Assembly (NCBI RefSeq): GCF_014651595.1
Contig: NZ_BMXE01000008.1
Coordinates: forward strand, 62,001-126,000
From: Pseudovibrio japonicus
GTDB lineage: Bacteria; Pseudomonadota; Alphaproteobacteria; Rhizobiales; Stappiaceae
Length of the DNA: 64,000 nucleotides
Direction of reading: 5' to 3'
In this document: one piece after another, positions 5,643-62,261 of the stretch
Numbering within the stretch: the first letter of the stretch is position 1
Layout: each line of letters begins with the position of its first letter
Made by a program: the position numbers and the translations under genes
The notes under the pieces: model-generated
Told to the model about the DNA's origin: nothing
The model's input: the letters and a program-made list of their open reading frames with translations, nothing else
The model's database searches: none

Positions 5643-6014
5643 TCAGAGATAGATCGGTGGCGCTCTTGGGGTGTGGCTACGTTTTGCATTTTCATAATGT
5701 GCCACCTTGTTGAGGGTAAAGACGTGTCTGGGTCTGGCAGCTACATATGAAAGGCTGCCCAGTAAAACCGCGGCAGGAGATTTGCGGCTGATGACTGAGA
5801 AAACGCAGAACTCGTCGCTTTGTGCGCTTGTTTGCTCCTCATTCCCAACAAAGGTCTCCACGAGCATCTGGTGCAGACTCAGTGAAGGGCAGATCACGAC
5901 TTCAAACCCATCAGCACCCGCGCGTGGCATCATGCCGGGCGGTGCGACAAGCTGCAGGATCACAAACGAGGTTGTGAGCCAGCAGACCAGGAGGGATGAG
6001 AGTTTCGGAGCCAA
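5643..6014 (-). CDS. DUF2946-like small secreted/membrane protein
   Basis: About 123 residues with an N-terminal hydrophobic segment (LSSLLVCWLTTSFVILQLV), then GMMPRAG and FEVVICPS, and a C-terminal TPRAPPIYL. The PPGMMP...VICPS...RAPP pattern and the length resemble DUF2946 proteins, short exported proteins often found near metal-handling and TonB-receptor genes. I place the start at a TTG at 6014 with AAGG nine bases upstream; the frame stays open to 6185 but the upstream residues do not look like this family. It lies 35 bases before the binding-protein gene and is probably co-transcribed with it. Function unknown; family assignment is by eye. Confidence 0.55.
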   Translation of the reverse strand: MAPKLSSLLVCWLTTSFVILQLVAPPGMMPRAGADGFEVVICPSLSLHQMLVETFVGNEEQTSAQSDEFCVFSVISRKSPAAVLLGSLSYVAARPRHVFTLNKVAHYENAKRSHTPRAPPIYL

Positions 6015-6199
6015 GTGAATGCACCTTGCGTGTGATGGATGATCAGAGCCAACCTTGGGGTTCCCAAGACTGATGATTGAGATGCACACAGGGACTACGC
6101 CCTGCGAGTTCCGATGCATACACCAGTGGCGTTGACTGTCCGGCGGGCAAGCTACGGAAAGCATGATGGTGCCATGGTGATGCATGACAGCGTTGGGAT

Positions 6200-6634
6200 C
6201 TACTTTGAGGGAGTGGGCCTGTTAGTCTGCAGATTACCCGTAACCTTGAAGGCCTGAATGAGCTTAACAAACTCAAACGGGGGCGCTCTGGGAGCGCTGT
6301 TGCCAACTGTGGTTGCGCCAAGCACTACGCTTGTTGCATGCGGAGCAACGGTGACCGGAGGAAGAGATAAATCAAATTCTGTGAGATGCGAACTGACGAG
6401 TACCTTTGCGGGAATATTGCAGAACGTGCAATTGGTGTAGGCATCATGCTCTTCAGTTTGATGATGTTCGTTGCCGTTTGCTTCACTACCTATGAACTGT
6501 ACGTCCTGAGCAATACTAATGGTACTCGCAAAGCCAGCTTCTGTTGCCGACGCGATCATGCCGGGAACAGCAAGAAGCTGCACCAACACAAACAGTGCAG
6601 CTATTACAATCGCTTTGGCATTCGACAGTTTCAC
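6200..6634 (-). CDS. Second DUF2946-like small exported protein (GTG start)
   Basis: 144 residues beginning MKLSNAKAIVIAALFVLVQL, a clear signal peptide or membrane anchor ending near VPGMIASA. The mature part has a His/Glu patch (NEHHQTEEHDAY), a C-x2-C pair (NCTFCN) and a C-terminal RAPPFEF. Short length, a CxxC near the middle and a late RAPP/RGPP motif are traits I associate with DUF2946. The CxxC and HH could bind metal, but that is inference. The start is a GTG seven bases below a 36-bp palindrome. It is first in the likely operon leading into the NikABCDE-type importer. Confidence 0.5.
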   Translation of the reverse strand: MKLSNAKAIVIAALFVLVQLLAVPGMIASATEAGFASTISIAQDVQFIGSEANGNEHHQTEEHDAYTNCTFCNIPAKVLVSSHLTEFDLSLPPVTVAPHATSVVLGATTVGNSAPRAPPFEFVKLIQAFKVTGNLQTNRPTPSK

Positions 6635-6641
6635 AGCAAAC

Positions 6642-6677
6642 TCGTTTAATTAGTATTTAAAATACCAATTAAACGAG
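6642..6677. promoter_or_regulatory. 36-bp near-perfect palindrome, candidate operator of the importer operon
   Basis: CTCGTTTAATT (6642-6652) and AATTAAACGAG (6667-6677) flank a perfect 12-bp core GTATTTAAATAC (6654-6665); only one pair (6653/6666) mismatches. The site sits just upstream of the first gene of the minus-strand operon and overlaps the place where a -10 would fall behind a TTGACT at 6690-6695. That geometry suits a repressor operator. If transcribed it would instead form a very strong hairpin at the ribosome site. I do not match it to a known Fur, Zur, NikR or Irr box. Confidence 0.65.
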
Positions 6678-6787
6678 CGAAGGATACCAGTCAATAGGGT
6701 ATCGATAATGTTGCATGGCCATTCGCGTTTCTCTCAGGATAACTTAGTCAACGTATCCAAGTGGGTGGAAGTCAGCCAAGCTCCTCC

Positions 6788-7109
6788 TCACTCCAGAATC
6801 TTTGTCAGGGCCTTTTGGATTGAACTGATGGTTTCCTGTACGGATTTCGGCGGCAGGTTCGCGCAGCTGTGTACGGCGTAGATTGGCGTTGGCTCTGGAT
6901 CTGCCAGACCCGCGAGGCGAGCAAGGCTACCTGTCTTTAGGTCTTGTGCGATACTGATATCTGGCAGGAATGCGATGCCGAGGCCGTTGCGGGCAAAGGC
7001 TGCTATGGCTTCAATGGTGTTGGCTTTCACCGTGGATTGGAAGGTGAGTTCGATCGGTTCCGCGTTCTGCAACGTTGGCAGGTTTAGTTTAACGATACTA
7101 ACCTGAGAT
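6788..7109 (-). pseudogene. LysR-family regulator, 3' fragment cut by an IS
   Basis: The frame encodes the last ~105 residues of a LysR substrate-binding domain (KANTIEAIAAFARNGLG, then LPDISIAQDL and YAVHS...LPPKSVQET). The same region of the intact LysR at 31203-32108 is nearly identical in these blocks, so the two are close paralogues. Homology continues upstream to about 7109, exactly where the inverted repeat of the IS remnant begins; the DNA-binding half is absent on the far side of the element. The IS most likely broke the gene and the 5' part was later lost. It should be non-functional as a DNA-binding regulator. Confidence 0.8.
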
Positions 7110-8330
7110 TGATTTGAGACCTAAGTTACCTCTATGTTTCGTGAGGATCCAATTTTCATATACAAGCCTCAAGCAGCTTTTGTTTCCAGCCATGTTTTGC
7201 GAGAAAACTTGGCGGGCGTGAAGTTCCCAGAGATGAATGTGGTCTCTGGGTGTTATAGTCGGATTGCCACCGGTTAATTTTGTTTCTTGCCGCCTGCAAT
7301 GACGAGAAGAGTCTTTCATTCAAGCACTCATCTCGGAAGCTGCCATTGAAACTCTCGACGAAGCCATTTGGCATGGGTTTTCCCGGAGCAAGATAGTGTC
7401 AGTTAATCTCGGTATCCCAACAGAACCTGAGAACTACTGAACTGGTCATTTCTGTTCCAATTTTCGAGACAATCGTATTTGGAACTCCCCTGTGAGCTAT
7501 AAGGGTGGTTAATTTTCGTACAAGGCGGGTTCCAGGGAGTGAGGTATCTGGAACAAGGGCCAAACACTCTCTAGTGTAGTCATCGACAACAGCCAAAACC
7601 GCTGAAGCGGCGCCCATCGGTAGATGCATCACTGACAAAGTCCAAGCGCCAGCGTTCATTTGCCCGTGACGGTAAAAGAAGCGGACAACGTGTACCGAAG
7701 GCTCGTGTTCGCCCACTTCTCTTGTGCACCTGGAGCGCTTCCTCTCGGTAGACCCGACGTAACTTCTTCTGGTTCATCACAAGACCTTGTCCGACAAGCA
7801 GGATTTGGATCCGCCGATACCCGAACCTTCTTCGTTTGTAGGTAATCTGCCTGATTTCTTCGCGCATAGGCTTTTCATCGGGACGCACGCTTTTTTATCG
7901 GATACTCGAGCGAATAACGCTCGAAATAGAGCAGGCCCGCCGCTCACTCACACCATGGGTCCGGCAAAGATGGACCACTGCTTGGCGTGCAGCGGCGGGC
8001 CTTACCACTTTTTTGAATTCACGTCACGGAGCATGGAATTGTCCAGCATCGACTCCGCAAGAAGCTTCTTAAGCTTAGCGTTTTCCTCTTCAAGTGCCTT
8101 CACCTGCGGGCATCCGTGACATCCATGCCGCCAAACTAAACTTTATACTTGGAAAACGAAGCGGAGCTGAGCCCGTACTTCCGGCAGACCTCTGCTGTTG
8201 GTATCCCGCTTTCTTGTTCCTTGATCATACCAATGATCCGCTCTTCCGTAAAATGCGAACGCTTCATATCTCACCTCCACTTAGGGGAGGATCCTATTAG
8301 AAACTGGATGAGGAAATGGGTCTCAGGTCA
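7110..8330 (-). mobile_element. Decayed IS3-family element (IS407-group-like), transposase broken by frameshifts
   Basis: On the minus strand a first frame starts at 8266 (MKRSHFTEERIIGMIKEQE...) and resembles the orfA helix-turn-helix protein of the IS407 group, with KLKKLLAESMLDN further on but in another frame after a stop. Pieces of orfB follow in changing frames: RRFGYRRIQILL, RQMNAGAWTLSV, then [18 protein letters not shown] and QRPHSSLG near 7156-7374. Several stops and shifts make it inactive. Imperfect terminal repeats can be seen: TGATTTGAGACCTAAG at 7110 and, inverted at 8330, TGACCTGAGACCCATT. No target duplication is evident. Confidence 0.8.
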
Positions 8331-9384
8331 TCAGCTTAGTAAGGCCGACAAATACACCTGTTCAATCGTATGAATACTCAAACCCAGCAGCACCTAAAAA
8401 TTTTGTAGAGCATGCTCAGTAACGAATTTTTCATTGGTTGCCAGCTCGTCAGTCGTGTCGAGTTCTCTTGCAAGTCTTCTAGTCTGGTTTGTGACGATGG
8501 CGCGAAGTAATATCTTCCTAAAGTCGATGAGGTCACCCAGAAATTGAAAGAGAGCACAGCAAGAGCACTCACTCACCCTGCATTGGTTAGCGCAACAAAG
8601 AGTTCCCTCCATCCTGATTGCTGCCTGTAGGGACGTTATCAATTAGTCCTCTCGATACCTTCATGCTTCGCAAACGAACTAATAGTTGGGTAGAGCACCG
8701 ATCGCATCGGAGATAATTGAACCCGCAATGATGAAAATTCAACGCCTGCGAGAGCAGGCGGCCCCAAATTCTTACGAGAGATTAGGTACTGATCTCGAGC
8801 CTGCAAAAGGGGATATCCGTATGGGGCAATTTGGCGGTGCGGTGGCGGATGCTGATAGATAGTTCTTTAGAAGTCCAAACTGTCCTTAGAGCGCATAAGA
8901 TTGCAAGTTGCTGCGGTGCTGGTTGGAAGAGAGGCGCTGCTATTTTTGAAATGAATTACAGGTCTGAATTGACTAATATCGTTGCTCGCATGTGAGCTCA
9001 GACTGAATCTTTCTGGTCATATCTTCTTCAATTAAATTTGCCATCCGAAATATGCAGAATAGCAATGCCTAGGGGCATGAATTAGATTTCTAAGTAACAA
9101 GTTGGTTTTCGAAGTCTATATCAATAATAATTACTTTATATGTGGGGTTTGTTTATCAGTGGTCGCTGTTTTGTTAGTGACTTTTGCTTTGGTGTGAGGT
9201 GTGTCAATAAAGTTAATCTCAAAGCTATTACATAATAATATATCTACTACATAAGGTGGTATTCGCTGGTCATTATTTCAATCTAACAGGAGGGTTATGT
9301 TGTGACTGTCGCCTCTATCGTGTGGTGTGAGCAACAATGTGATCTGAAATTTGAGGGACTGTCTTTCCTATTGTGGGGGCCTAA
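8331..9384. other. AT-rich gap before the nonulosonate cassette; no convincing gene
   Basis: About 1 kb of low-GC sequence. A perfect hairpin CGCCTGC-GAGA-GCAGGCG lies at 8743-8760. It falls inside a short plus-strand frame (8728-8862, 44 residues) that has no ribosome site and that I do not call. A minus-strand frame at 8394-8642 also lacks recognisable motifs. The last 250 bases are very AT-rich and presumably hold the promoter of the neuB-like gene, whose ATG at 9385 follows a GTGGGGG ribosome-binding stretch. Confidence 0.4.
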
Positions 9385-10305
9385 ATGGTAAAAGTAATAG
9401 CAGAGATTGGCTGCAATCATATGGGCGATATGGATGTAGCAAAAGAATTAATCCAGGTAGCGTCCCATGTTTGCAAAGCTGACGTCGCTAAATTTCAGAA
9501 GCGTAATCCAAAAGAGCTGTTAACTGCGGACGAGTATATCACGCCGCATCCAGTTCCAGCTAATTCGTATGGGCAGACTTACGGCGAGCATCGTGAGTTT
9601 TTAGAACTTAATTCCGGTCAGCATAAAGAACTTGCTGAAGAGTGCCGCTTAAATGGCATCGAATATTCGACCTCTGTATGGGATTTAACTTCAGCGGTAG
9701 AAATTGCAGCGCTGAAACCTAGTTTGATTAAAATACCATCAGCGACCAACCAGCATTATGAGCTCCAGGAGTATCTCTGCAAGAATTACGAAGGAGAAAT
9801 CCACGTCTCAACCGGCATGACTACAAAGGAGGAGATGAATAGAATGATCTCGTTCTATGAAGTGCATGGTCGTGCAAAGGACCTTGTTGTCTATGCCTGT
9901 ACCTCGGGTTATCCCGTCGCGTTTGGGGACATTTGCTTGTATGAAATCACTGCCCTACAGGAGCAATATGGCGAACGTGTTAAGTCAATTGGGTTCTCTG
10001 GTCATCATCTTGGCATTGCAGCAGATGTAGCTGCACTTGCGCTCGGTTCGGCCAATCGAGAACGCCTTGGATATGGAAACTTCGAGTATATCGAACGCCA
10101 TTTCACCCTCGATCGGACCTGGAAAGGTACAGACCATGCCGCTAGCCTTGAGCCAGATGGGATGCGCAAGCTGTGCCGCGACCTGAAGAACGTTTCAGCT
10201 GCTCTAGCAACTAAACAAACGGAGCTGTTGGATGTTGAAATTGTCCAACGTAATAAGCTCAAGTGGGACGCGAACAAGCACGGTGATCTGCTCGAGAGCG
10301 CTTAA
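9385..10305 (+). CDS. neuB: NeuB-family nonulosonic acid (sialate/KDN-like) synthase lacking the SAF domain
   Basis: NeuB-type enzymes condense phosphoenolpyruvate with a hexose (ManNAc, ManNAc-6-P or Man-6-P) to a nine-carbon 2-keto acid. The N-terminal barrel is clear: VIAEIGCNHMGDMDVAKELI at the start, VAKFQKRNP near residue 37, YSTSVWDL near 95, KIPSATNQ near 118, STGMTTKEEM near 140, GFSGHHLGIAADVAALALG near 210 and ERHFTLDRTWKGTDHAASL near 235. At 306 residues it stops after RNKLKW, where NeuB proteins usually go on into a ~60-residue antifreeze-like SAF domain that helps close the active site. The stop codon abuts the start of the next gene, so the two are coupled. Which sugar it uses cannot be read directly; the fused phosphatase downstream favours a 9-phosphate product. 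Confidence 0.88.
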   Translation: MVKVIAEIGCNHMGDMDVAKELIQVASHVCKADVAKFQKRNPKELLTADEYITPHPVPANSYGQTYGEHREFLELNSGQHKELAEECRLNGIEYSTSVWDLTSAVEIAALKPSLIKIPSATNQHYELQEYLCKNYEGEIHVSTGMTTKEEMNRMISFYEVHGRAKDLVVYACTSGYPVAFGDICLYEITALQEQYGERVKSIGFSGHHLGIAADVAALALGSANRERLGYGNFEYIERHFTLDRTWKGTDHAASLEPDGMRKLCRDLKNVSAALATKQTELLDVEIVQRNKLKWDANKHGDLLESA

Positions 10306-11469
10306 ATGACTGTTATCGCTATTGTGCCAGCACGCGGGGGGTCTGTAGGACTTCCCGGGAAAAACCTTATACCTTTTCACGGTACGCCACTTGTCGCCAT
10401 GACAGTGCTCGCAGCAAAGGCGTCGAAGCGCATCGATCGGGTGTTTGTATCTAGCGACAGTCATGAAATTCTTGGTGCTGCGCAGCAGGCGGGAGCTGAG
10501 CCAATTTTGAGGCCTGAAGAGATCTCTGGTTCCCTTGCTAGTTCCGAGAGTGCATTGATACATGCTCTTCATCATATTGGCGCCAAAGTGGAGGACATTG
10601 TTGTATTCTTGCAATGCACTTCGCCATTTACAACCCCGCATGAGATCGACAGCGTTGTTGCGGCTCTCGATGACGAGAAAGTCGCTTCAGCTTTTAGTGC
10701 AGTTGAGGATCACTGCTTTATTTGGAAATCTAGCGAAACTGGTCTTGCTGAAGGGATCACGCATGATCATACTATGCCGCGCCAGCGTCGCCAGGATATG
10801 GAGCCAAGATATCGGGAAAACGGCGCAATCTACGCCGCCAAAGTGGGGCCGTTCCTTGAGTTTGAGAACCGTTTTTGCGGAGATACAGTTGTCGTGCCGG
10901 TTCACTCGCCTTCCATCGAAATTGACAGTGCGGATGATTGGCTTATTGCTGAAGCCGTTTTTGGTGCGCGATCACAATTGCGACGGAGTAAGCTAACCGA
11001 TACTTCTGGGATCAAAGCCATAATTACTGATTTTGATGGGGTACATACAGATGACTGTGTGTACGTTAGTCAAGATGGAACAGAAACGGTAAAATGCAGC
11101 CGGTCTGATGGCTTTGGCTTAGAGATTTTACGCAAACAAGGTTTGCGTCTACTAATTCTTTCAAAGGAGACCAATCCAGTCGTTGAAGCTCGTGCTGCAA
11201 AACTGCAAATGGAAATTCTGCAAGATATCGGCGACAAGGTAGCAACACTGGAAATCTGGCTGAAGAAGAATGGACTGAAGTGGGACGAGGTTGCCTATGT
11301 TGGCAATGATCTGAATGATCTTGGTTGTATGCAGAAAGCGGGAGTAAGTCTAGCGCCAAGTTCTTCTATAAAGACGATCCTTTCCATTGCAGATATTAAA
11401 TTGACTAAGTCTGGCGGTGATGGGGCGATTAGAGAAGCTGCAGAAATAATCATGGAAAATAGAAACTAG
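10306..11469 (+). CDS. neuA: CMP-nonulosonate synthetase fused to a HAD (KdsC-like) phosphatase
   Basis: Two domains in one 387-residue chain. Residues 1 to ~225 are a CMP-acylneuraminate cytidylyltransferase: AIVPARGGSVGLPGKNL nucleotide loop, LQCTSPF near 103, and a late EIDSADDW. Residues ~235-387 are a HAD phosphatase of the KdsC type: motif I DFDGV with both aspartates (D242, D244), a motif-II serine in LILSKE, a lysine in GDKVATL, and motif IV VGNDLNDLGCM. The catalytic set looks intact. The same order occurs in animal CMAS proteins. The ATG directly follows the TAA of the neuB-like gene. Together the pair could remove a 9-phosphate and then activate the acid as a CMP-sugar in the cytoplasm. 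Confidence 0.88.
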   Translation: MTVIAIVPARGGSVGLPGKNLIPFHGTPLVAMTVLAAKASKRIDRVFVSSDSHEILGAAQQAGAEPILRPEEISGSLASSESALIHALHHIGAKVEDIVVFLQCTSPFTTPHEIDSVVAALDDEKVASAFSAVEDHCFIWKSSETGLAEGITHDHTMPRQRRQDMEPRYRENGAIYAAKVGPFLEFENRFCGDTVVVPVHSPSIEIDSADDWLIAEAVFGARSQLRRSKLTDTSGIKAIITDFDGVHTDDCVYVSQDGTETVKCSRSDGFGLEILRKQGLRLLILSKETNPVVEARAAKLQMEILQDIGDKVATLEIWLKKNGLKWDEVAYVGNDLNDLGCMQKAGVSLAPSSSIKTILSIADIKLTKSGGDGAIREAAEIIMENRN

Positions 11470-11868
11470 TCTGGTTCAGAAATGTGATGATTATTGAGAA
11501 CGCTGTTGACTAAAAGTTGCGATTATCAATTATGTGGCCTGCAGTGATCTGTTGAAACCTTTAAAGAACTGTTTTTTGACAGAGTTCATATTGCCACCAA
11601 ACAATTATGTGTCGGAAAGTATTACAAGGCGTTCGAGATGATATTGTCGGATCCCTGCGATGCAAAACCTTCGTCAGCAATGTTGTCGCCCTAAATTAAG
11701 GCCCTTTTTAGTGTATCAGAGTGTGGGTTACTTGGCGGAGGGTAATAAACATAAATTTCTTAATTGAGGGTGTAAGTAGATATCTTTCGAAGTTTACTTA
11801 CTTCAAGAGTCATCGTTTTTCACTTTCATTCGCATCCAGATGCCGTCAATGCGGGAACATGACTGAAA
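11470..11868. other. AT-rich gap within the nonulosonate block
   Basis: No gene seen. A weak hairpin followed by five T (about 11686-11707) could end the neuBA message. The 16-base string TTGAGGGTGTAAGTAG at 11764-11779 recurs upstream of the acyltransferase gene. The remainder probably carries the promoter of the glycosyltransferase gene, implying it can be transcribed separately from neuBA. Confidence 0.4.
11764..11779 (+). repeat. 16-bp sequence shared with 16785-16800
   Basis: TTGAGGGTGTAAGTAG, 89 bases ahead of the glycosyltransferase ATG. The identical string lies 38 bases ahead of the acyltransferase ATG at 16839, same orientation. Both genes are surface-glycan type, so a shared leader or regulatory element is possible, though one 16-mer repeat in 64 kb can arise by chance. 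Confidence 0.4.
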
Positions 11869-13110
11869 ATGAAGACTTTAATCATCGCAAGCTATGATTC
11901 GTTTCTGACAGCTGGCGCAAGGCTTGCAAGTCGGATGGAAGAGCATGGTGTAGATGTTGACGTTGCTGTTCTCAGAATAAAGCCGAACCAGGTTGCATCT
12001 CGACAGATGACTGAGGCTGCCTGTACACGCAAGGTTTTCGATGTGAGTTTCGACAGTTTGGCTAATCCAACATTTATGGGGCAATATGAGGGATATGTCT
12101 TATCGATAGATGGACCCAGCTGTAAACGTTTGTTTATGCGTTTGTCGATATGCAGCGGATACAGACCTGCAATTCTAACACTTTATCCCGGCTTAGTATT
12201 CCGGTTTGATTATGATGGCTTTAGCGCGCGTGCACCATCAGATCTTGTCTGGCTAAACAGTCAAAAGGATTTGGAGAAATACCGCGCCCTTACCTCATCT
12301 CTTGGGAAGCCTGACAATGGACGCAATTTTGGTTTGGCTACATTGTTAGATGAAGGTGCCGCCTCTGAGATGGTCAAGTGTGAAAACCGACCTAGCAAAA
12401 CAATCGTATTTTTTGAGCAGGTGGTGATCCCAAGTTCTAAGGCCGATAGAGAAATACTAGTTAGGTTGCTTTTAGACTTGGCAAAAAAGTACTCGGAGCA
12501 CAAGATTCTAGTTAAGCCGCGCATGAAGCCGAAGGAGAAAACGATCCATAAGCTTAAGGCAGATCTGCATATTGAGAAGATTTTTCAAAGGCAAAAAGAA
12601 AGTATTCCAAGCAATATACAGATAACCTATCAACGTGCAGGTAGTCTCCTTATGAACTGCGACGCGTGTTTAACAATTAGTTCCACAGTAGCAATTGAAG
12701 CGATACATAGGGGTGTTAGGCCAGTCATTATTAATGATTTTGGCTTTCACGATGATAGCGGTGTACCGTTTTTTCTTGGTTCTGGCCTAATCTCCAGCTT
12801 GGCTGATATCGATGTAGATAAGCTCGCCGAACCAAATCCAGCATGGCTATCTGATCACTTCACGGAGGTGAGTTGTACGGCTGCTCCATTACTTGCAGAG
12901 TTCATGCAACTCGCTAAATCAGCAAGAGAAAATCATTTGCCACCGATCGACGTTTCACCTTGGTTGGGTTCAGAGCAAGTCTTAGCCGAGCTTCGAAGCT
13001 CTTACAGTGATGATGACATCGCGTTGGGTTGGTATCGAAAACCTGGCAAGAAGCTGCCGATCAAAGTGCTCTCAGATATCTATCAAGCATTCTCAGGTTT
13101 TTTTCGATAA
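11869..13110 (+). CDS. Putative glycosyltransferase of the nonulosonate cassette (DUF6716-like)
   Basis: 413 residues, no signal peptide and no strong membrane segment. It opens KTLIIASYDSFLTAGARL, and later has TIVFFEQVVIPSSKADREIL (about 180-205), KILVKPRMKPKEKT (near 220) and SSTVAIEAIHRGVRPVIIND (about 270-290). The last block is laid out like the nucleotide-sugar binding half of GT-B transferases, including polysialyl/capsule types. The N-terminal motif and the neighbourhood recall DUF6716 proteins that travel with neuB and neuA in actinobacteria; that match is from memory. The simplest role is transfer of the CMP-activated nonulosonate to a surface glycan. Base composition is AT-rich like neuBA and unlike the flanking acnB, which suggests transfer as a block. 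Confidence 0.6.
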   Translation: MKTLIIASYDSFLTAGARLASRMEEHGVDVDVAVLRIKPNQVASRQMTEAACTRKVFDVSFDSLANPTFMGQYEGYVLSIDGPSCKRLFMRLSICSGYRPAILTLYPGLVFRFDYDGFSARAPSDLVWLNSQKDLEKYRALTSSLGKPDNGRNFGLATLLDEGAASEMVKCENRPSKTIVFFEQVVIPSSKADREILVRLLLDLAKKYSEHKILVKPRMKPKEKTIHKLKADLHIEKIFQRQKESIPSNIQITYQRAGSLLMNCDACLTISSTVAIEAIHRGVRPVIINDFGFHDDSGVPFFLGSGLISSLADIDVDKLAEPNPAWLSDHFTEVSCTAAPLLAEFMQLAKSARENHLPPIDVSPWLGSEQVLAELRSSYSDDDIALGWYRKPGKKLPIKVLSDIYQAFSGFFR

Positions 13111-13551: not shown

Positions 13552-16338
<2,787 letters not shown>

Positions 16339-16838: not shown

Positions 16839-18797
16839 ATGACTGCCTTTTTCAACAAGCAAACGAGATTTCGGGGTGATATTGAGGGGCTGCGCGGCCT
16901 TGCGGTTCTTCTGGTCGTTCTATTTCACTTTCGGCTCTGCGGAAGTTCTGGTGGATTTTTGGGTGTTGACCTGTTTTTCGTGATTTCGGGTTTTTTGATG
17001 ACCCAGATCATCTTGAGCTCACAGTTCGGCTGGAGCATCCCAAGTCTAAAACAGTTTTATTCTAAACGGTTCTGGCGCATTGCGCCCGCGTATCTTTTCG
17101 CCGTGGCAATTGCGTCCTTGGTCGCTCTTTCAAATCAATGGGCGCTTATCATCGATAAATTTACGCAGTCTCTTCTGAGCTCGCTGGCCTTCTCATATAA
17201 TGTATATGCACCGCTCGAGACCGGCTATTTTGCAGCGGCTGCAATCACCAAACCATTTCTGCATCTCTGGTCCCTTGGGGTCGAAGTGCAGTTTTATCTG
17301 CTCTGGCCTGTTCTCCTCTTTTTTATCTACAAACGCCCATTCCGGCAGCAAGTTCTGGCCATTGCGGCAATTACAACTATCTCTTTGATTTATGCGGTAA
17401 TAAGTCAGCTAGATGGCGATGAGGACGCGTACTTCCGTTTGACCGCGCGCTTGTGGCAGTTTGGAGCAGGGGGGCTCATAGCGCTTGCACTCAAGCGTAC
17501 GCCCGCTGAGAGCAACTCGAGGCTGTTTTCATATATAGGTATTGCATCCCTGCTTCTTATTCTCCTTCTTTCCTACGCTTCTCCTTGGGAAGACTGGAAT
17601 GTAGTTTCAGCAACGCTTATTACTGTTGCCGGGGCAAGCTTGATTTACATTGGGGGGAGGCAGAATGTAATCAGCAGCCGGGTATTGTCGGTTAAGCCAA
17701 TCCGGACGCTGGGTTTGGTCTCGTACAGCGTTTATCTCATCCACTGGCCTCTGGCAGTTGGTCTATATTTCTACTTTCCAGATTTTGAGACAGACAGTTC
17801 CATCCGTATAGGAGGAGCAATTCTCTCAGTCGTCTTAGGTGCGCTCCTATACTGGGCCGTTGAAAAGAAATTCCGACTTCAGAAAGGGCAGGTCCAGCCT
17901 GCCGCAAAGAAATGGCTTACCGCTAGCACCTTTGGTGTGCTCCTCGTCTTCGCGGTAGGCTTGCAGTCTGAAAGGCTTTGGCCGCTGGTTTTTGACAGCC
18001 GCTTGATTGAGTTATCTGCACTCGACCGGGATTTCCGCGAATACGGAGGCGAAAGCTGCAACGGAGATCCAAAAGTCTTCTGCGTTCTGGGAGACCAAAT
18101 AAAGGCTCCGGAACTGGTCCTTTGGGGCGATTCCCACGCAAGGCATTTTGCACTCGGTATTGACCGGGTGTTCACTGAGCAAAATCGTAATGCAGTGTCA
18201 TTTGCAACAAGTGGCTGCGCACCCACGGGAAACTGGGCGAACCAGCGGGCAAGTAACTTTGCGAACTGCAAGGCTGCCAATCAGGCAGTTATGGCCTACC
18301 TTGCGTCAGAGCAGAGCCCGCACCGTGTTCTACTTGCCGCGCGATGGTTTAAGTTTACTCCAGGAGTTAATAGTTTCTCGGATTTCAACAACCCAGCCTC
18401 TCCGGCTCGTGATATCGAAGGCGTCCTTGATCAGACGTTTAGTGAGTTAAAAGCTCTGGGGAAACAAGTGACCATTGCCCTTCAAGCTCCAGAGTATAGA
18501 GGGAAGGGGCAACTGCGCACCTGTCAGGATGCCTTCATCAAAAATGACGGTTCAATGCGTATTGCCTGCGACAGACCTGCGACAGATCACCTAAAGCGAC
18601 AGCGTGAGATGGACAGGCTACTTATCGGCGTTGCTTCCAGATATGACAATGTCGAGGTCGCTGACGTGAAATCCGTGTTCTGTGACAGTGAAGGATGCCT
18701 CTTGGCTCAATCAGACAAGTTCTACTACCGCGACACAAACCACCTCAATCGTATCGGCGCCGAAAAAGTTGTACGTGAGGCGTTCATTGGGATGTGA
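16839..18797 (+). CDS. Membrane O-acyltransferase (OafA/YrhL type) with C-terminal SGNH domain
   Basis: 652 residues. The N-terminal ~360 are an acyltransferase-3 domain: FRGDIEGLRGLAVLLVVLFH at the start, GGFLGVDLFFVISGFLM near residue 45, RFWRIAPAY near 75, LWSLGVEVQFYLLWPV near 145, and about ten membrane helices. The C-terminal part is a periplasmic SGNH hydrolase-like domain with LVLWGDSHARHF near 430 and a D-x-x-H pair in DTNHLN near 635. Such proteins acetylate lipopolysaccharide, capsule or other surface glycans, the SGNH half receiving and passing on the acyl group. It stands alone but lies close to the nonulosonate cassette and shares a 16-base upstream element with it; a joint role on one glycan is speculative. 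Confidence 0.9.
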   Translation: MTAFFNKQTRFRGDIEGLRGLAVLLVVLFHFRLCGSSGGFLGVDLFFVISGFLMTQIILSSQFGWSIPSLKQFYSKRFWRIAPAYLFAVAIASLVALSNQWALIIDKFTQSLLSSLAFSYNVYAPLETGYFAAAAITKPFLHLWSLGVEVQFYLLWPVLLFFIYKRPFRQQVLAIAAITTISLIYAVISQLDGDEDAYFRLTARLWQFGAGGLIALALKRTPAESNSRLFSYIGIASLLLILLLSYASPWEDWNVVSATLITVAGASLIYIGGRQNVISSRVLSVKPIRTLGLVSYSVYLIHWPLAVGLYFYFPDFETDSSIRIGGAILSVVLGALLYWAVEKKFRLQKGQVQPAAKKWLTASTFGVLLVFAVGLQSERLWPLVFDSRLIELSALDRDFREYGGESCNGDPKVFCVLGDQIKAPELVLWGDSHARHFALGIDRVFTEQNRNAVSFATSGCAPTGNWANQRASNFANCKAANQAVMAYLASEQSPHRVLLAARWFKFTPGVNSFSDFNNPASPARDIEGVLDQTFSELKALGKQVTIALQAPEYRGKGQLRTCQDAFIKNDGSMRIACDRPATDHLKRQREMDRLLIGVASRYDNVEVADVKSVFCDSEGCLLAQSDKFYYRDTNHLNRIGAEKVVREAFIGM

Positions 18798-61007: not shown

Positions 61008-62261
61008 TTATGCTCCCTCAGCCTTATTGTTTTCTGGTGCGCTCCACCGGCTGAAAAGGGAGGTTGAGAGCAATCGTGGTCCGTTAAGTTCGCGAATAGC
61101 CAGCTCGCCGGATTCAATAGTACCCGGCAGGCCATCTAGGCATTCACGCATCAGTTCGTGAGAGGCAAGGAAGCTGGCGCGAATAGCATAGCTGGACATA
61201 AGCAGAAACTGCGCATTTGGCGACAGCAGTTTACGTACGCAGGCCAGCATATGCGGCACATTCTCAAAGAAGTCCCAGACCTCGCCATTGGGCCCACGGC
61301 CAAACTTTGGTGGATCGAGAATAATGCCGTCGTAAGTGTTTCCACGGCGTACTTCCCGCTCCACAAACTTCATGGCATCCTCGCAGATCCACCGGATCGG
61401 CTTATCTTCAAGGCCGGAAAGCTCCTGATTTTCGCGCGCCCACACAATCGCCTTCTTGGATGCATCAACATGAGTGACATGTGCGCCAAGGGCAGCAGGC
61501 AGCAGCGATGCCAGACCGGTGTATCCAAACAGGTTGAGGATCTTGAGTGGGCGGTCCGCTTTTTTGATTTGCTCGCCTACCCAATCCCAGTGGGCAGCCT
61601 GTTCAGGAAACACGCCCACATGGCGGAAAGACATGAACTGGCCGTTGAACGTGGCAGGTCCGTATTTCATCTGCCAGATTTCATCTACCTGTTTGGCAAA
61701 CTTCCAGCGGCCCGGACCTTCTTCCTCAACATCACCGGTAAAGATCGCATCCGCGCTCTTCCATTCGCTCTCCGGCAGGCGAGGGGCACCCATGGCCTGT
61801 GCTTCGGGGCGGATCAGCTTATAGCGGCCATACCGCTCCAGCTTCTGTCCGTGTCCCATGTCCAACAGGGCATAGTCGTCCCAGCCGTCCATCTCCACCA
61901 TTACTGGCAAAACGCTGGCAGGCGTGGCAAAGCGAGCGGATGTAGGTTTGTGCTCCCGCACGATCGGTTCAACGACGGCCGTGGCTGGAGCGCTACGCGT
62001 TTGCTCGCGCCGGTTCGGGCGGGCAGCAGCCGGGCTGTCTTTTTTGCCACCACGAGTGTCGCGGGGATTACGCGCCTCTCGTTGGTCACGCCCGTCACGA
62101 CTATCCCGTTTGGCAGAAAAACCACGCTTCGGACCGGTGTCCCGCCGTGCTCCGCCTTTTTTGGATTGCGCATTGCGAGCGCGTGGAGCGCCGCCTTTTG
62201 GTGATTTGCTCAAGGATGTTGCCTTTGATTTTCTGCGCACAAACGCGAGGCAAAGCCTCAC
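61008..62261 (-). CDS. RlmI-like class I rRNA methyltransferase with basic N-terminal extension
   Basis: Up to 417 residues. Residues ~1-110 are a disordered Arg/Lys/Gly/Asp region (DSRDGRDQREARNPRDTRGG), probably RNA-contacting. The catalytic part has SAM motif I LKILNLFGYTGLASLLPAAL, ALGAHVTHVDASKKAIVWAR, and motif IV DGIILDPPKFGRG, typical of large-subunit RlmI/RlmK-type enzymes. The exact start is uncertain: the frame begins with a GTG at 62261 and another GTG lies at 62240. Coupled to the TrmH-like gene. Confidence 0.82.
   Translation of the reverse strand: MRLCLAFVRRKSKATSLSKSPKGGAPRARNAQSKKGGARRDTGPKRGFSAKRDSRDGRDQREARNPRDTRGGKKDSPAAARPNRREQTRSAPATAVVEPIVREHKPTSARFATPASVLPVMVEMDGWDDYALLDMGHGQKLERYGRYKLIRPEAQAMGAPRLPESEWKSADAIFTGDVEEEGPGRWKFAKQVDEIWQMKYGPATFNGQFMSFRHVGVFPEQAAHWDWVGEQIKKADRPLKILNLFGYTGLASLLPAALGAHVTHVDASKKAIVWARENQELSGLEDKPIRWICEDAMKFVEREVRRGNTYDGIILDPPKFGRGPNGEVWDFFENVPHMLACVRKLLSPNAQFLLMSSYAIRASFLASHELMRECLDGLPGTIESGELAIRELNGPRLLSTSLFSRWSAPENNKAEGA

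Follow-up and report, generated by a model that had tools for sequence, protein, structure and literature searches.

The described systems that most resemble the one analysed here are the pathway for Kdn (2-keto-3-deoxynononic acid) in Bacteroides thetaiotaomicron (BT1713–BT1715), the neu cluster of Escherichia coli K1 (neuDBACES) and the rkp systems of Sinorhizobium, as found on pSymB of S. meliloti ml28. To our knowledge, the attachment of Kdn in Gram-negative bacteria has been little studied. In this paper, we analyse a cassette of three genes from Pseudovibrio japonicus, located at 9385..13110 of a 64,000 nucleotide stretch (positions 62,001 to 126,000 of contig NZ_BMXE01000008.1, assembly GCF_014651595.1) that we refer to as the window. 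The cassette encodes a NeuB-family synthase, a cytidine monophosphate (CMP)-nonulosonate synthetase (CMAS) fused to a HAD phosphatase and a protein of the Pfam family DUF6716. We infer its chemistry throughout from sequence comparison and structure prediction: the cassette probably makes CMP-Kdn and transfers Kdn. Newness lies in the attached NeuE-family transferase, the source of most interest, Kdn synthesis being already known.

The window cassette resembles the B. thetaiotaomicron pathway in possessing a NeuB-family synthase, a type C0 HAD phosphatase, a CMP-synthetase and the Glu56/Arg64/Lys67 triad of the phosphatase; it differs in that the HAD domain is fused behind the CMP-synthetase, a DUF6716 transferase is attached and the host is an alphaproteobacterium. 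In B. thetaiotaomicron itself the HAD protein is separate from the CMP-synthetase; fused forms occur in other Bacteroides. The predicted mannose-6-phosphate (Man-6-P) route is likewise that of BT1714 and its algal homologue, an enzyme found by similarity to BT1714 which is reported to make Kdn-9-phosphate (Kdn-9-P) from phosphoenolpyruvate (PEP) and Man-6-P (PMC6200933). With the E. coli K1 neu cluster the cassette has in common a DUF6716 gene beside genes for NeuB and a CMP-acid synthetase, homology between the DUF6716 proteins over 326 columns and a host genome with capsule genes of group-2 type, whereas the cassette is without NeuC, NeuD and NeuS, the predicted route is the phosphorylated one to Kdn rather than one via N-acetylmannosamine (ManNAc), and the export genes lie on another contig. 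S. meliloti ml28 pSymB carries the same three genes, fusion included, in the same order beside an ATP-binding cassette (ABC) permease gene and a capsular polysaccharide gene, and rkp-1-like genes are present in the P. japonicus genome. Compared with ml28, the window cassette stands apart from export genes, has no adjoining CST-I-like gene and encodes a transferase that is ~35% identical. Mammalian-type CMAS also consists of a synthetase followed by a C-terminal HAD domain, and PDB entry 3ewi, presumably the C-terminal domain of mouse CMAS, aligns with the window HAD domain; the DxD motif is intact in the latter and reads NxD in 3ewi.

The transferase gene (11869..13110, + strand) encodes a protein of 413 amino acids that matches the DUF6716 'putative glycosyltransferase' model (PF20471; 9.8e-56, 189.6 bits against a cut-off of 27). 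Its AlphaFold model has two domains (mean pLDDT 88.5, pTM 0.86), with a C-terminal helix (400–412) predicted at low confidence, and Foldseek matches it to GT-B folds with query TM scores of 0.37–0.54 among the best 50 of 1816 matches. The earlier description of a GT-B-like transferase is borne out as regards the fold, and the protein can further be placed in the NeuE/DUF6716 family, which was invisible to the earlier reader. Two other identities were considered and rejected. As a NeuC-like epimerase the protein has fold matches only, at 11–14% identity (again the best 50 of 1816), and its Pfam family is DUF6716; as a NeuS, it lacks a match to PF07388, the model that K1 NeuS matches at 152.4 bits.

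In the E. coli type strain, a gene flanked by neuC and the gene for the polysialyltransferase is annotated 'DUF6716 putative glycosyltransferase' and scores 56.6 bits against PF20471; from the gene order, we take it to be neuE. Alignment of 25 DUF6716 proteins with NeuE by hhalign gives a probability of 99.4% (E 1.9e-21) over 326 columns, covering residues 3–329 of the 382 in NeuE. Fifteen residues invariant in the 25 proteins were looked up, of which NeuE keeps 11 (D10, S11, G108, Q184, P188, R194, R218, N249, S272, S305 and W326) and differs at R121, D125, T273 and D290. As judged by this alignment, the window transferase is a homologue of E. coli K1 NeuE. The C-terminal half of DUF6716 also aligns with KpsC/KpsS-type proteins, which use CMP-Kdo (Kdo, 3-deoxy-D-manno-oct-2-ulosonic acid), at a probability of 92.3% (hhalign, E 5.6e-7, 114 columns). 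A role for NeuE as the primer of polysialic acid has been proposed and is disputed: one report terms it a putative sialyltransferase for priming (PMC5517516). According to another, neuE overlaps neuC (PMC2408645). From linkage, fold and homology taken together, we predict with reasonable confidence that the window DUF6716 protein is a CMP-Kdn transferase. A search of the open-access literature found no paper naming DUF6716 and none with both NeuE and Kdn.

The linkage was examined in 87 genomes of the same family. DUF6716 exceeded its cut-off in 32 of them, mostly weakly; near-full-length matches, defined by a score of at least 98 bits and at least 242 of the 342 model positions, numbered 18 in 11 genomes, and those discarded reached at most 33 bits and 91 positions, the single one scanned being a KpsS-like protein. 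Each of the 18 near-full-length matches has a NeuB gene at most 6 kb away, of the Kdn type in 17 cases and another NeuB accompanied by CMAS in one (genome G014). Counted by genome, ten have both DUF6716 and Kdn-type NeuB, one has DUF6716 alone, nine have NeuB alone and 67 have neither (Fisher p 2e-7, uncorrected for kinship). Among 72,556 plasmid records, 12 (one from an actinomycete, several of them close kin) carry a DUF6716 relative, with a NeuB-family gene within 18 kb in all 12 and within 9 kb in 10. DUF6716 is also present in 21 of the 80 best NeuB loci, a set fetched via NeuB and hence no test of linkage from DUF6716 to NeuB. A transferase gene is thus closely tied to the presence of NeuB, and the converse holds in part. 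Across 385 sampled alphaproteobacterial genomes, in a search that scored at most five candidates per genome and may undercount, the genome that contains the window was the only one in which DUF6716 exceeded the cut-off, and 14 control genomes gave one match, in E. coli.

Comparison with two cassettes from the same genus shows how the parts have diverged: NeuB of the window shares 86% and 81% identity with its counterparts and the fusion 67% and 59%, while the transferase is 25% identical to that of one genome (G026) and 51% and 29% identical to two in the other (G015). The pattern is consistent with a donor kit that stays constant while transferases are exchanged, which would be expected were the transferases to set linkage or acceptor. 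At a Tritonibacter locus (L217:17659-21929), DUF6716 adjoins pseF, near pseI, with a Kdn-type NeuB and CMAS–HAD pair on the same stretch; members of the family may therefore also use pseudaminic acid.

The donor half of the cassette begins with the synthase (306 amino acids; 9385..10305, + strand; PF03102, 7.8e-59), the single NeuB gene in a genome of 4.96 Mb on 24 contigs. The SAF domain of NeuB contacts the N-acetyl group. As the original prediction had it, the window enzyme is SAF-less: the PF03102 profile stops at residue 277 of 306 with no further domain listed, and its relatives are equally short, with estimated lengths of 283–318 amino acids at 79 of 80 loci (the one left over runs off its stretch). 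It does not reach the cut-off of the NCBIfam model NeuB_NnaB (TIGR03569; 167.8 against 399.65 bits), to which E. coli K1 NeuB scores 456.8 bits and a Kdn-type NeuB from B. faecis 195.4 bits. In a midpoint-rooted tree of 106 rows, 97 form a Kdn-type clade (support 100/99, long branch) that spans many phyla, including Bacteroides; E. coli K1 NeuB and two longer NeuBs from Bacteroides genomes (frames of 342 and 346 amino acids) fall outside it, the outgroup rows being long-branched and unsure in position and BT1714 not being included. Within a Pseudomonadota clade of this tree, the window NeuB is grouped with two copies from the same genus (100/99). On these grounds it is predicted to be a Kdn-9-P synthase using PEP and Man-6-P. 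Across the 87 family genomes, NeuB scores of at least 421 bits (64–100% identity) are found in 19 and the next match has 106 bits, a clean split, and a survey of the genus Bacteroides found Kdn-type NeuB in five of 80 genomes, none tied to B. thetaiotaomicron. Searched with the NeuB alignment, named genomes yielded at least 577 confirmed relatives, of which the best 80 are 59–78% identical (best segment) and derive from a wide range of bacterial phyla plus one bin with an archaeal label.

The second gene (10306..11469) follows the stop codon of NeuB without a gap and is, as predicted, a fusion of CMP-synthetase and phosphatase, in a single intact frame of 387 amino acids with CTP_transf_3 (PF02348, 1e-24) followed by a C-terminal HAD domain. 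The synthetase half (10306..10989, + strand) matches the structure of a CMP-N-acetylneuraminic acid (Neu5Ac) synthetase in the PDB (6ifd, 1e-29). The type C0 HAD half (10990..11469, + strand) retains the catalytic residues, namely the DxD nucleophile motif (DFD), the motif-II serine (LS), the motif-III lysine and GND..D (GNDLND), and in an alignment with PDB entry 3e81 carries Glu at position 56, Arg at 64 and Lys at 67. We take 3e81, whose file is named acylneuraminate cytidylyltransferase, to be BT1713, the enzyme that dephosphorylates Kdn-9-P in B. thetaiotaomicron. In the paper on the BT1713 structure, Glu56, Arg64 and Lys67 are said to recognise the substrate, Glu56 and Lys67 distinguishing the enzyme from Kdo-8-phosphate (Kdo-8-P) phosphatase; chain 4hgq, the same protein as 3e81, has Ala exactly at the triad Glu. 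Among five aligned chains the triad is found in 3mmz and 3e81, with Glu and Lys only in 3ewi, Arg/Arg/Glu in 4um5 (KdsC) and Ala/Arg/Gln in 3n1u. Glu/Arg/Lys is also seen in 79 of 83 tblastn rows from 99 searched loci (some genomes fetched twice), the remaining four being a Glu/Arg/Arg row, an Asp/Arg/Lys row and the two parts of a match that was split. The HAD domain is accordingly a candidate Kdn-9-P phosphatase.

This arrangement is common. CMAS and HAD were both matched in 60 of the 80 best NeuB loci, in a single open frame in 57; the 20 others include short contigs or genes possibly beyond the fetched flank, and among loci with at least 4 kb on both sides of NeuB the figure is 50 of 64. 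By these counts and the number of NeuB relatives the compact cassette is not unusual, and the Kdn-making module is of a known, widespread kind. A scan of genome contigs with the fusion protein as query gave no confirmed relative, and it was the NeuB alignment that succeeded. A second class of CMAS–HAD fusion is seen at eight loci (L044–L051, from family genomes G047, G056, G042, G045, G029, G060, G048 and G065), where the first HAD catalytic Asp is replaced by Ser, Ala or Gly (8 rows); L044–L046 also carry a separate HAD gene with the first Asp, in parallel with the NxD of 3ewi. At L047–L051, five family genomes carry a second type of NeuB (279–287 amino acids, ~35% identical) and share a neighbour cluster (c3) and CMAS–HAD fusion in similar order.

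Precursor supply points the same way. No neuC or acetyltransferase open reading frame (ORF) lies inside the cassette, as had been noted, and a check of the rest of the genome for neuC found only WecB: this is the single Epimerase_2 (PF02350) gene (418.9 bits, cut-off 210.15), so that no hydrolysing NeuC was found in the genome, the same gene scoring 77.4 bits against a NeuC cut-off of 235.9. Type I Man-6-P isomerase (PF01238) has no match in the genome; a bifunctional GMP/PMI gene is present (GMP_PMI, 627 bits; an open frame of 495 amino acids in which the lone flagged TAA is the frame's own end), and Man-6-P should therefore be available. Together with the NeuB clade and the phosphatase residues, these results agree with the Man-6-P route to Kdn proposed by analogy with Bacteroides, and the original prediction of a Kdn pathway was very probably right. 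The predicted sequence of steps, from Man-6-P and PEP to Kdn-9-P, Kdn and CMP-Kdn, is well supported, and it is highly likely that the donor half of the cassette supplies Kdn. AGE-family epimerase/isomerase genes, possibly for precursor supply, occur near the Kdn-type module on plasmids of Maritalea (L184:4463-5551) and Tritonibacter (L217:14175-15266). At the locus of the WecB gene (L052:4029-11377), genes for a GT2-like membrane protein, a large TPR-like protein and wecB stand in a row (read by eye), an arrangement that resembles a glycan system of the NfrB–NfrA–WecB type.

We propose the following scheme. NeuB, judging by its clade, would condense PEP with Man-6-P to give Kdn-9-P, from which the HAD half of the fusion, judging by its conserved residues, would strip the 9-phosphate. 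The CMP-synthetase half would then activate Kdn with cytidine triphosphate, so that these two predicted activities would reside on the one chain whose architecture is seen in the sequence. The DUF6716/NeuE-family GT-B enzyme would move Kdn from CMP-Kdn to a cell-envelope acceptor, as suggested by linkage, fold and homology. This acceptor may be the Kdo-primed lipid of a group-2/rkp-type K-antigen, KpsS-like, ABC-export and rkp-1-like genes being present on another contig. There, two Capsule_synth genes lie side by side, each with KpsS as its best NCBIfam model (206 and 213 bits), and near them are genes for an ABC ATPase, an ABC-2 permease and SLBB/Poly_export, aminotransferase-family and KR-ACP proteins; a protein of 508 amino acids among them has no Pfam match. 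From their domains, we read these genes as putative KpsTMED together with rkp-1-like genes. In S. meliloti 1021, rkp-1 is required for poly-Kdo secretion, according to PMC4881576, and Kdn is reported in an S. fredii capsule in PMC9000132. It is because of the capsule genes, the neighbours in ml28, the rkp-1 link to poly-Kdo and the S. fredii Kdn that we favour Kdn on a Kdo-anchored K-antigen (group-2/rkp-type); this is the weakest step of the scheme and one that may well be wrong. The Sinorhizobium cassette is adjoined by a gene (L183:12411-14081) for a protein of 556 amino acids with CST-I sialyltransferase and GT8 matches.

A number of observations weigh against the scheme. Only 10 of the 19 family genomes with Kdn-type NeuB also have DUF6716. 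The best CMAS model for the fusion is PseF, below its cut-off (118.9 against 205.7 bits), and the Kdn-9-P phosphatase model NF058599, still the top-scoring HAD model, reaches 110.2 bits and is under its cut-off of 180. BT1714 is absent from the data, and the link to it runs via other Bacteroides. Foldseek places UDP-GlcNAc 2-epimerases, themselves of GT-B fold, at the head of its matches to the transferase, and the fold therefore does not settle the activity; the likeness to KpsC/KpsS may be a common GT-B C-terminal motif only; and NeuE is argued in PMC2408645 not to be obligatory for polymer synthesis. On the acceptor side, both KpsS-like proteins fall well under the KpsS cut-off of 600 bits, the capsule genes are on a different contig from the cassette and a Pfam scan of the cassette matched no polymerase family.

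In Maritalea and S. meliloti ml28, DUF6716 occurs together with relatives of CST-I-type sialyltransferases, and DUF6716/NeuE proteins could on this evidence be non-catalytic membrane accessories of capsule assembly, with the Kdn transferase encoded elsewhere in the genome. We think this rather unlikely, given the full GT-B fold, the residues invariant in 25 relatives (D10, S11, G108, Q184, R194, R218 and S272 among others), 11 of 15 of which are kept in NeuE, the lack of any other transferase-like gene in the cassette and the naming of NeuE as a putative priming sialyltransferase (PMC5517516). The sugar, too, might be a different one: starting from ManNAc-6-phosphate (ManNAc-6-P), the cassette would make Neu5Ac-9-phosphate, Neu5Ac and then CMP-Neu5Ac, as in animals. 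The HAD step needs only a 9-phosphate, structures of CMP-Neu5Ac synthetase are among the matches of the cytidylyltransferase domain and, according to PMC9000132, Serratia marcescens KL1/KL2 has Kdn and Neu5Ac at ~20:1, both dependent on one locus. A Neu5Ac product is nonetheless quite improbable, for hydrolysing NeuC was not found in the genome (ManNAc-6-P salvage was not searched for) and the window NeuB, under the NeuB_NnaB cut-off and without a SAF domain, belongs to a clade with Bacteroides Kdn-type enzymes. Least probable by far is hydrolysis of Kdo-8-P by the HAD domain. The genome has no separate KdsC-like match, the fusion query giving itself and one match to its N-terminal half, which we read as a probable KdsB; yet siblings without the cassette (G016–G019) have no KdsC-like match either, which suggests that the genus uses another Kdo-8-P phosphatase, although that search missed even KdsB-like genes there. 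The window triad, moreover, is Glu/Arg/Lys and not the Arg/Arg/Glu of KdsC 4um5.

The remaining question is whether the cassette that would make and attach Kdn is instead a recent foreign import or a decaying, functionless leftover. Some of its surroundings invite that view. To the left lie a LysR substrate-domain fragment in a decayed flank (6788..7072, - strand; PF03466, 1.9e-10 over 94 amino acids) and transposase fragments (7399..7888, - strand) in which a family scan finds rve and HTH_21 in overlapping ORFs, presumably of an IS3 element; to the right is an ORF that we take to be aconitase B (acnB; 13552..16338, + strand; its product 87–93% identical to those of 10 sibling genomes) and that lies outside the cassette. 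The IS remnant and acnB are the borders originally described. The cassette has 45.6% G+C against 51.9% for the window, around the 2nd percentile of same-size windows, so that its description as AT-rich holds on average and fails for the CMAS part (51.3%). A 399-bp gap (11470..11868, 39.3% G+C) separates fusion and transferase, with no ORF of at least 80 amino acids listed and no Rfam match, and Kdn-type NeuB is found in only three of 16 genus members. Against import or decay, the three ORFs, all on the + strand, are intact, with catalytic residues in place, and stand at the positions originally given, and the grouping of NeuB with its own genus (100/99) speaks for the same conclusion. We regard this explanation as improbable. 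Transfer of the cassette is possible given its low G+C and patchiness; a recent foreign origin, in line with the imported look described in the original prediction, is not shown. In stretches from 10 siblings (two of them short, at 4.6 and 7.6 kb), acnB has beside it none of the 16 further window genes that were tested, and sibling acnB contexts mostly differ, three of 10 sharing a downstream neighbour and two a gene group further upstream; with the surroundings of acnB so variable across the genus, an empty site is not demonstrable. No clear repeat flanks the cassette, the short two-copy repeats seen being taken as chance. More widely, the window looks decayed from 5643 to 9384, with the LysR and IS3-type fragments, a sub-threshold DUF2946 match and no ORF above 180 amino acids. 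The second gene downstream of the cassette (16839-18797) encodes an AT3 acyltransferase of 652 amino acids with an SGNH domain, a type of enzyme often seen in surface-glycan acetylation.

What these results offer is, above all, a testable function for an uncharacterised Pfam family, DUF6716 being tied to NeuE and, across family genomes, plasmid records and E. coli K1 alike, to NeuB-type genes. How a sialate-type capsule polymer is primed on poly-Kdo is left open for E. coli K1 in PMC11666461, and P. japonicus would provide a non-pathogen model for that step. Tentatively, and with more doubt than confidence, we suggest that NeuE/DUF6716 proteins are a GT-B family using CMP-nonulosonates to prime or build polymers on beta-Kdo glycolipid, the P. 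japonicus member making a Kdn-based K-antigen. If this is true, the window protein would be a simplified system, with no NeuS gene beside it, in which the disputed role of NeuE could be tested directly.

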